Source: an uncultured Pelagibacteraceae bacterium (GTDB lineage Bacteria; Pseudomonadota; Alphaproteobacteria; Pelagibacterales; Pelagibacteraceae). From it: DNA of 64,000 bases. Positions 44,001 through 47,312 of the stretch are shown here, piece by piece (position 1 is the first letter of the stretch; every line of letters starts with the position of its first letter). The notes beneath the pieces were generated by a model. That model worked only from the letters and a program-made list of their open reading frames with translations. It had not been told where the DNA came from and did not search any database. The stretch spans positions 1 to 64,000 of the forward strand of contig CACAWY010000006.1 of NCBI GenBank assembly GCA_902536385.1. The letters run 5' to 3'. A program made the translations under genes and the position numbers.

Positions 44001-45107
44001 CTAAGATAAAACCGCTATTAAGCTTGCAAATACCGTAAGTCCAAGGCCACAGTAAACATATTTATTTTGAATAATATGTGATTTGATTTTTACAATTATT
44101 GACTCTTTGTAACTTAGTCCACCATCATTTAGATTAGTTGATTTACTAAAACCTTGATCTCTTCCAATTTGAAGAAATTTTGATTTCCTGTGTTCATAAA
44201 CCTCTTCTTTGCTGAATGTTTCAAAAAATTTCAAGTTCTTTATTATTGAATGTTTAATATCTGCTGCAATGCTTTCTGGATCTCTATGTGCTCCACCTAA
44301 CGGTTCTGGAATTATTTCATCTATAATTTTTAAATTTAATAAATCTTTTGCAGTTAACTTCATTGCTTCAGCTGCTTGTAAAGATTTACTTGGATCACGC
44401 CAGAGTATTGACGCACATCCCTCTGGAGAAATCACTGAGTAAATAGAGTTCTCAAGCATGACAACTTTATTCGAGGATGCTAAAGCAATAGCTCCGCCTG
44501 ATCCACCCTCTCCAATTATAATTGAAATGTTTGGAACAGTTAAGGACATACAACATTCTATTGAATTTGCTATTGCTGAAGCTTGACCTCTTTGTTCAGC
44601 TCCTAAACCTGGGTAAGCTCCTGGAGTATCAATAAAACTTATCACTGGTATTTGAAATCTATCAGCGAGTTTCATTAATCTGATACATTTTCTATATCCC
44701 TCTGGACGCATCATTCCAAAATTTCTTTCTATCCTGCTGTTTAAATCTTCACCTTTTTCTTGACCAATAATTAATACTGATTTGTTATCTATCAAACCAA
44801 ATCCAGTAATTACAGATTTATCATCACCAAAATATCTATCTCCAGAAAGTAAAGAAAATTGAGAAAAAATTTTTTTTATATAATAGTTTGCTTTTGGTCG
44901 ATCCTCATGTCTAGCAACTTGTGTTTTTTGCCAACTATTTAAATTTGAATAAATTTCCTCTAATTTTTGATTAATTTCTGATTGGGTAGTTTTTATTTTA
45001 TTTGTGTCAACTTCTGATATACCTTCAGATCCAAAAGGACTCTTCAAACCATCGACTTCTTGTTCTAAAGCTTTTATTTCTTTTTCAAAATCTAAATAAT
45101 TTTTCAT
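44001..45107 (-). CDS. accA: Acetyl-CoA carboxylase carboxyltransferase subunit alpha, with C-terminal membrane segment
   Basis: A 368-residue alpha subunit; the normal length is about 317. The core is canonical: HEDRPKANYYI (about residues 67-77), RNFGMMRPEGYRKCIRLM, FIDTPGAYPGLGAEQRGQ (about 155-172) and IGEGGSGGAIAL (about 195-206). After the usual end near KFLQIGRDQG there are about 45 extra residues finishing with a hydrophobic segment (YVYCGLGLTVFASLIAVLS) that could anchor the enzyme to the membrane. It transfers CO2 from biotin to acetyl-CoA. It is divergent from glcB, with 60 bp between them. Confidence 0.95.
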   Translation of the reverse strand: MKNYLDFEKEIKALEQEVDGLKSPFGSEGISEVDTNKIKTTQSEINQKLEEIYSNLNSWQKTQVARHEDRPKANYYIKKIFSQFSLLSGDRYFGDDKSVITGFGLIDNKSVLIIGQEKGEDLNSRIERNFGMMRPEGYRKCIRLMKLADRFQIPVISFIDTPGAYPGLGAEQRGQASAIANSIECCMSLTVPNISIIIGEGGSGGAIALASSNKVVMLENSIYSVISPEGCASILWRDPSKSLQAAEAMKLTAKDLLNLKIIDEIIPEPLGGAHRDPESIAADIKHSIIKNLKFFETFSKEEVYEHRKSKFLQIGRDQGFSKSTNLNDGGLSYKESIIVKIKSHIIQNKYVYCGLGLTVFASLIAVLS

Positions 45108-45167
45108 ATAAAATGATACAATAATGCTAGTATTATTATATTATGAAATAATGTAAAGATCGACGAT

Positions 45168-47312
45168 ATGAAAATGTTAGAAAAAAATGGCCTTAAAATT
45201 AGTTCTTCTTTGTTTGAATTTATAAATAACGAGGCTATTCCAGGAACAAATATAAAGGCTGAGGAATTTTGGGATAAATTTTCAAAAGCTGTGCATGCGC
45301 TTAGTCCAACAAACCGGAATTTAATTGAAGAAAGGGAGATTATACAAAAAAAGATAGATGCTTGGCATAAATCAAATAATGATAAGGAATTGAATAAAAT
45401 TGAGTATATAAATTTTTTAAAATCTATTAACTATATAGTGCGAGAGGAAAGTGACTTTGATATTCAAACTTCCAATGTGGATAAAGAAATATCTTCAATA
45501 GCGGGTCCGCAACTTGTGGTTCCAGTTGATAATTCCAGATACGCTCTAAATGCTGCCAACGCCCGATGGGGGAGTTTATATGATGCATTATACGGAACTG
45601 ATGTTATATCTGGAAATTTTGATAAAAACTGGGATTCTAAAAGAGCCAAAACAGTTATAAATTATGTTAGAGATTTTCTAGATGAAAGTTTTCCACTGCT
45701 AAGTAAAAGCTGGAAAGAGATATCCAAAATTCAAGTTGAAGAGGAAAAACTTATTCTATTATCAAATTCTGAGAAATACTTTCTTAAAAGTAATGACCAG
45801 TTTATAGGATACAATGGAAGTAAAGATAATCCAAATTCAATTTTAATAAAAAATAATAATCTGCACGTCGATTTATTAATTAATCCAAGTACTCCTGTTG
45901 GAGAAATTGACAAAGCCTCAATATCGGATGTAGTGGTAGAATCAGCATTGTCGACGATTGTTGATAATGAAGACTCTGTGGCTGCTGTTGATGCCTCTGA
46001 TAAAGTAAAATGCTACCGAAATTGGTTAGGGCTAATGAAAGGTGATCTTACATCAACTTTTAAGAAGAATGGAAAAACAATCAAAAGAAAATTAAATCCC
46101 GATAGAACTTACACATCTAAAGAAGGAAAAAAAATTATTCTTCATGGAAGAGCTTTATTGTTAAATAGAAATGTTGGTCACTTAATGACCAACCCATCGA
46201 TACTTTTAAAAGATGGATCGGAAATTCCTGAGGGCATAATGGATGCATTTATATCATCACTATGTGCTTTACATGATTTCAAAAATAAAAAAAATTCTAG
46301 GACTGCATCTGTTTATATAGTTAAACCAAAAATGCATGGACCAGAAGAAGTAAAATTTACAAACACTTTATTTGAAAAAGTTGAAGACACTTTAGGAATC
46401 AAAAAATATTCTATTAAAGTTGGTATAATGGATGAGGAAAGAAGAACTACGGTCAATTTAAAAGAGTGTATAAGACAGGTAAAGAATAGAATTGTTTTTA
46501 TAAATACTGGCTTCCTAGATAGAACAGGAGACGAGATGCACACATCTTTTGAGGCAGGGCCTATGATTTTTAAAGGGGACATGAAGAAATCAACTTGGCT
46601 GAATTCGTATGAAAATTGGAATGTTGATATAGGTTTGAATTGTGGTTTTTCAGGTAAAGCACAAATCGGTAAAGGAATGTGGGCTATGCCTGATCAGATG
46701 GCTAATATGATGGAACAAAAGATAAATCATCCAAAATCTGGAGCTAATTGTGCTTGGGTTCCATCTCCAACTGCAGCAACTTTACATTCTCTTCACTATC
46801 ATAAAGTTAGTGTATTCGATGAACAAAAAAAAATAAAATTGAGAAAAAAAGCTAGTGTGGAAAATATTTTAGAAATACCAAAAGCTGATAGACCAAACTG
46901 GTCTGTCGAAGATATAAATAGAGAGCTAGAAAATAATGCACAGGGGATATTAGGTTATGTGGTTAGATGGATTGATCAAGGAGTTGGTTGTTCTAAAGTT
47001 CCTGATATAAATAATATAGGATTAATGGAAGATCGCGCAACTCTACGAATATCTTCTCAACATATTGCTAATTGGCTTCATCATGGTATTTGCAGTAAAG
47101 ATCAAGTTATGAACGTAATGAAAAAGATGGCTGCTATCGTTGATGAACAAAATAGAAATGACCCTCATTACAAAAAAATGTCAAATGATTTTGAAAAATC
47201 TATAGCGTTTTCAGCTGCATGTGATTTAGTTTTTAAAGGAAGAGTTCAGCCTTCAGGTTATACAGAGCCACTGCTTCATCAAAAAAGGCTGGAGAAAAAA
47301 GCTTTAATCTAA
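45168..47312 (+). CDS. glcB: Malate synthase G
   Basis: A 714-residue malate synthase of the G isoform, condensing glyoxylate with acetyl-CoA. Recognisable stretches are [18 protein letters not shown] (about residues 126-143), the catalytic [31 protein letters not shown] (split, about 424-455), [11 protein letters not shown] (about 502-512) and [21 protein letters not shown] (about 525-545). Length is normal. The ATG is only 60 bp from the divergent accA start. In SAR11 this gene is reported to follow a glycine riboswitch, but there is no room for one here. Confidence 0.96.

Follow-up and report, generated by a model that had tools for sequence, protein, structure and literature searches.

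The glycine riboswitch of glcB, the malate synthase gene, in Candidatus Pelagibacter ubique was reportedly described by Tripp et al. in 2009. It serves as a standard illustration of the link between glycine and central carbon flux in SAR11, a group that ranks among the most abundant marine heterotrophs. The glcB switch was first reported in metagenomes (PMC2211319). According to the available part of that article, about 59% of 119 metagenomic glycine riboswitches precede gcvT and about 20% precede glcB. In P. ubique HTCC1062, Table 1 of Meyer et al. 2009 (PMC2704228), as far as available, gives a 249-nt region with a glycine riboswitch between glcB (minus strand) and accA (plus strand). In HTCC7211, the glcB transcription start was mapped 162 nt upstream of the start codon, with the caution that assembled reads were linked to gcvT (PMC5069720, available sections). 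The switch is described as tying the glycine level to carbon partitioning via malate synthase (excerpts of PMC5069720 and of PMC13198564, both citing Tripp et al. 2009). GlcB phosphorylation in HTCC1062 varies with conditions (PMC13198564, same excerpt).

The window analysed here, a 64,000-nucleotide stretch of contig CACAWY010000006.1 from an uncultured Pelagibacteraceae bacterium, carries the same accA/glcB pair in the same divergent arrangement as P. ubique, but the gap is 60 nt without a riboswitch instead of 249 nt with one. glcB (45168..47312, plus strand) encodes a 714-aa malate synthase G matching PRK02999 (1180 bits, cut-off 565) and TIGR01345 (1061 bits, above the curated cut-off of 989). 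accA (44001..45107, minus strand) encodes the 368-aa alpha subunit of the acetyl-CoA carboxylase carboxyltransferase, with 437 bits against PRK05724 (cut-off 357) and 392 bits against TIGR00513, also above its cut-off. Residue 1 of AccA falls on position 2 of PRK05724 and residue 2 of GlcB on position 3 of PRK02999 (NCBIfam models), so both starts look right. The two start codons are exactly 60 nt apart (intergenic region 45108..45167), as the initial annotation had stated. At its C-terminus, AccA extends 52 residues past the family-model match and ends in a hydrophobic run (minus strand, 44001-44160); most relatives align to the end of AccA. Gaps of 56-63 nt are found at 23 accA-glcB loci from 22 genomes, the window among them (locus L061 is a second copy from the genome of L039). 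The 60-nt gap is thus no assembly accident. The assignment to SAR11 made from the sequence holds: the nearest named glcB matches are Pelagibacteraceae genomes, AH-326-G20 among them, and trees of the two flanking genes, glcB and accA, give the same grouping.

The absence of a glycine aptamer from the gap was also confirmed. An Rfam search of the window at gathering score returned only a tRNA and a small SRP RNA, and no RF00504. A permissive scan of 44700-45600 on both strands (E up to 10) gave a single snoRNA match at chance level. It revealed no glycine aptamer, including in the 5' region of accA, where a hit had been named as an observation that would refute the claim. No covariance match reaches 32 bits, the score for membership in RF00504, in the glcB leader. 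RF00504 matches in relatives span at least 73 nt, and the 60-nt gap includes the promoters. As had been proposed, there is no room for even one aptamer between promoter and start codon.

The genome-wide covariance search suggested in the initial annotation gave no RF00504 match in the whole assembly (974,312 bases, 23 contigs, 81.5% complete); among 14 control genomes, those of B. subtilis and C. vibrioides were positive. This zero does not mean that all glycine riboswitches are lost, since the assembly lacks the gcvTHP stretch, which falls at a contig edge. The assembly contains neither a close gcvT nor any gcvP. Relatives carry a transporter gene two genes ahead of gcvT; its match here has only 22% identity. 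The first bases of contig C15 already lie within the gene found three genes downstream of gcvP in relatives (94% identity; query residue 78 corresponds to contig base 3). Among the sampled congeners, a close gcvT is accompanied by its glycine riboswitch in all 26 cases. The missing gcvT riboswitch is best read as an assembly gap at a contig break, and the idea that this species has lost the glycine cleavage system was rejected on the same ground.

Glycine riboswitches are found in 26 of the 37 genomes of the window's genus (its own genome counted). These 26 are exactly the genomes with a close gcvT (at least 76% identity). The gene after the element is gcvT in 25 of them. In the 26th, G024, the element lies at a contig end, and a different contig carries its second half in front of gcvT. 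Four of the 26 (G007, G016, G027 and G033) have a second tandem RF00504 pair directly upstream of glcB, in gaps of 276-285 nt. G106 and G168 likewise have tandem RF00504 matches just ahead of glcB, in gaps of this size.

Comparison of glcB upstream regions across SAR11, also proposed at the outset, extended this picture. An order-wide sample of 147 genomes gave 92 with a glcB match, of which 88 were kept after removal of two fragments (G096 and G077) and two weak matches (G065 and G090). Among the matches listed, a riboswitch lies within 350 nt upstream of glcB in 27 of these 88 full-length genes, a count also given by a core-motif check on the fetched gaps, and is absent in 61. At least 71 of the same 88 genomes have a glycine riboswitch elsewhere. 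In G081, the one genome checked for this outside the window's genus, the open reading frames show that this other riboswitch precedes gcvT. The 130 loci with an adjacent accA fall into three gap-length groups of 53-63, 80-213 and 258-285 nt. The riboswitch core motif occurs at 40 of 129 loci (L045, with a cut accA, set aside), in gaps of 258-285 nt except for L198 (213 nt) and L176 (180 nt). Absence of the riboswitch at glcB is common in SAR11, and most sampled species lack it. The suggestion that the window belongs to an unusual branch is therefore weakened. If glycine control of malate synthase, as known from P. ubique, were assumed throughout SAR11, most of the sampled species would be described wrongly.

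Some single loci of the sample deserve mention. At L176 (G072, another SAR11 genus; 180-nt gap), the glcB riboswitch is a single aptamer. Its 5' part resembles that of aptamer 1 and its 3' part that of aptamer 2, as though the two had recombined with loss of one copy. Twelve genomes of the other large genus (L241/G081 and 11 similar ones) have one RF00504 match each among the matches listed. In G081 a second aptamer before gcvT is visible by eye, and in the twelve genomes weak second aptamers may have escaped the filters. At L164 and L167 (G061 and G064, single-contig SAR11 genomes), the 1.5-kb flanks of glcB yielded no accA.

The reading that we favour, with a probability of about 0.85, is that an ancestral tandem riboswitch was deleted on the line to the window's clade, and that glcB is no longer under glycine riboswitch control. 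The ancestor would have carried the tandem switch between accA and glcB, as in P. ubique, and a deletion of roughly 200-220 nt would have taken it out. A glcB+accA tree of 128 loci, built by a quick method and with L061 dropped as the second copy of one genome, requires at least 10 changes of the riboswitch state, 7 of them forced by starred branches. The count of changes does not tell gain from loss. Short gaps without riboswitch are also found far off on this tree, in the other large genus (L234, 53 nt; L236, 57 nt).

A more careful tree of the same two genes used 41 loci of the window's side and three outgroup loci; L234 and L236 were left out. In it, the 21 short-gap loci (56-63 nt) form one clade (98/95*). 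This clade sits inside a group that also holds the riboswitch-bearing loci L063 and L055 (95/94*). A wider group (100/99*) adds the riboswitch-bearing L052, L053, L054, L159 and L160. Nearest to the short-gap clade are L041 and L050, with gaps of 114-116 nt and no riboswitch (support 92/54); no riboswitch remnant appeared at either of them in a shuffle test. Because these nearest loci also lack the switch, the loss cannot be pinned to one branch. A topology that unites the eight riboswitch-bearing loci of the window's side is not rejected (AU p 0.165); the two-gene tree alone is therefore not decisive.

Direct evidence for loss comes from one relative, which holds a fossil of the switch. The gap of G014 (L049), picked by eye from the printed gaps, measures 131 nt; the gaps of L063 and L055 exceed it by 146-154 nt. 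The G014 gap retains the promoter side that its riboswitch-bearing relatives share. Adjoining glcB, it also has a 30-nt stretch in which 26 of 30 bases are identical to the 3' end of the L063 riboswitch. The remnant scores 22.6, compared with a best of 13.6 among 59 other gene starts of the window, and none of 2000 dinucleotide shuffles reached its score; it was the only one of 11 loci tested to lie beyond every shuffle. G014 groups with the riboswitch-bearing L055 (99/94*, 44-locus tree). The remnant gives no match to the RF00504 covariance model even at E 10, so the fossil rests on the alignment to relatives and on the shuffles.

In the window itself, no remnant was found in the 60 nt: 1467 of 2000 shuffles score as high, as do 32 of the 59 background gene starts compared with the riboswitch 3' end. 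Since these 60 nt hold no riboswitch trace, the case for loss in this line rests on the tree and on the relatives. Hints in sister sequences are weak, with 87 of 2000 shuffles as high for L042 and 115 of 2000 for L157, and the conserved GTAAAG of the sisters may be the accA -35 box instead of a riboswitch remnant. On the accA side, the likeness of the window to riboswitch-bearing or intermediate gaps is matched by 6 of 59 background starts. For the other 22 short-gap sequences the figure is 0-5 of 59 in 21 cases and 20 of 59 for L156. The slight resemblance of the accA sides is suggestive only. A search of a phage collection with the accA-glcB DNA gave no match.

The initial annotation had left the choice between a lineage that lost the control and a branch that never had it. 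In the latter case, several relatives would have gained the switch separately, for example by copying their own gcvT riboswitch. We extracted 75 riboswitches, by a pattern that missed 12 others (4 glcB, 8 gcvT), and built a tree of 74 (L176, lacking a second aptamer, was left out). In favour of separate gains, the glcB and gcvT copies of the window's side fall into one group with L198 in this tree, while the remaining copies of the other large genus stand outside it (96/89*). The tree does not require a single clade of all glcB copies, which when held together is not rejected (AU p 0.39); the glcB copies of the window's side held as one clade are not rejected either (AU p 0.205). Against separate gains, the 23 gcvT riboswitches extracted from the window's genus make up a clade to themselves (100/96*), which speaks against each glcB copy being a recent duplicate of the gcvT switch in its own genome. 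In the other large genus, 26 of 27 glcB copies form another clade (97/99*), with L198 apart. A 3' platform, ACCRAW or GCCAAT ... TTGGTG, is common to the glcB copies of the window's side and absent from those gcvT copies that were read. Separate gains would require this platform to arrive repeatedly at one spot, and the G014 fossil shows that loss happens. With riboswitch-bearing relatives surrounding the clade on the two-gene tree and a fossil in another relative, loss is better supported, and a clade that never had the switch appears unlikely.

The platforms themselves may be of two kinds. In the other large genus (L067, 3900-4030), a predicted helix, GCAUA.CACU/AGUG.UAUGC, closes aptamer 2 and includes the start codon of glcB. 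In L063 (3890-4030) and similar loci, the 3' tail ATTGGTG could, by eye, pair with the aptamer's own ACCAAT; the L063 fold is without this pairing. L067-type and L063-type loci perhaps represent two different expression platforms.

If the riboswitch was deleted, the remaining 56-63 nt must act as promoter region for both accA and glcB. Comparison with relatives indicates that this region is conserved. Identity between the window and L036 is 55/60 in the gap and 81/190 at glcB four-fold sites. The corresponding values are 49/58 and 87/199 with L032, 50/60 and 75/194 with L035, and 39/56 and 71/185 with L042. Between L042 and L039 they are 43/56 and 125/224. The gap is thus more conserved than four-fold sites in all five pairs compared. 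The consensus of the window and its 21 sister sequences has the core TA.TATTA.TaTATTATAA.AtAATGTAAAG.

Such constraint might reflect a substitute for the riboswitch, some other element that responds to glycine and sits in the 60 nt or in the opening codons of glcB. We consider this very unlikely: no Rfam family rises above chance in 44700-45600, the RNA of leader and first codons (45128-45200) folds no better than shuffles (z 0.03), and conservation above four-fold sites is expected anyway because back-to-back promoters share the gap. The gap probably corresponds to two interleaved divergent promoters. A consensus scan proposes a candidate glcB promoter, ATGATA-18-TATATT (9 of 12; 45113..45142, plus strand), with its -10 on conserved columns and its -35 off them; its leader would measure about 19 nt. 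The candidate accA promoter, TTTACA-17-AATACT (9 of 12; 45129..45157, minus strand), is interleaved with it, and its -35 (TGTAAA on the plus strand) falls within the best-conserved block. Leaders of about 15-20 nt would follow from these candidates. Two promoter matches were found in a 401-nt region where 2.1 are expected by chance, so the interleaved promoters are a model, not a result. As an extension of this model, mutually exclusive promoters may have tied accA and glcB together after the deletion, the glycine sensor being replaced by a fixed or competitive partition of acetyl-CoA. We hold this to be unlikely. If true, accA (acetyl-CoA to fatty acids) and glcB (acetyl-CoA and glyoxylate to malate) would compete for RNA polymerase in one 60-nt block.

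A metabolic cause for the deletion was also considered. Loss of the glcB riboswitch could follow the gain of a glyoxylate transaminase (AGXT/SgaA type) making glycine from glyoxylate. Among the first ten genomes, the three with the gene (G061, G071 and G120) indeed lack the glcB riboswitch. In the 88 genomes, however, the riboswitch occurs in 5 of 26 with the gene and in 22 of 62 without it (Fisher p 0.20). Independent pairs on the tree show no link, with too few differing pairs to reach significance. The gene is found in none of the 11 searched genomes of the window's genus, its own included. The best solved match of the transaminase protein is serine-glyoxylate aminotransferase. No association with riboswitch loss was found, and this explanation is extremely unlikely.

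Under the favoured deletion, the glcB leader would be at most 60 nt unless the transcript starts inside accA, and no aptamer of the RF00504 class would fit. Malate synthase would therefore not be under glycine riboswitch control, and from the DNA we infer loss of the glycine response of glcB in the window's lineage. Malate synthase may be produced in this clade whatever the glycine level, or be controlled in another way; constitutive expression and allosteric or post-translational control would be possible. The question can be tested on pairs of relatives of which one has the switch and the other does not.

Absence of the glcB riboswitch in marine SAR11 is not reported in the available portions of PMC2211319, PMC5069720, PMC10030771, PMC3160333, PMC12636525 and PMC2704228, nor in those of PMC12478193, PMC3264578, PMC12753301, PMC13198564 and PMC6018831. 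Malate synthase replacement in LD12, as presented in the available part of PMC6018831, is a change at the same genomic location. In LD12, isoform A replaces isoform G, whereas in the window isoform G stays and the riboswitch alone is gone. Other SAR11 malate synthase loci without riboswitch (gaps of 53-206 nt) share with the window the divergent accA/glcB arrangement and the lack of an aptamer. The window's clade differs from them in that its gaps, 56-63 nt, are among the shortest and are conserved as a block.
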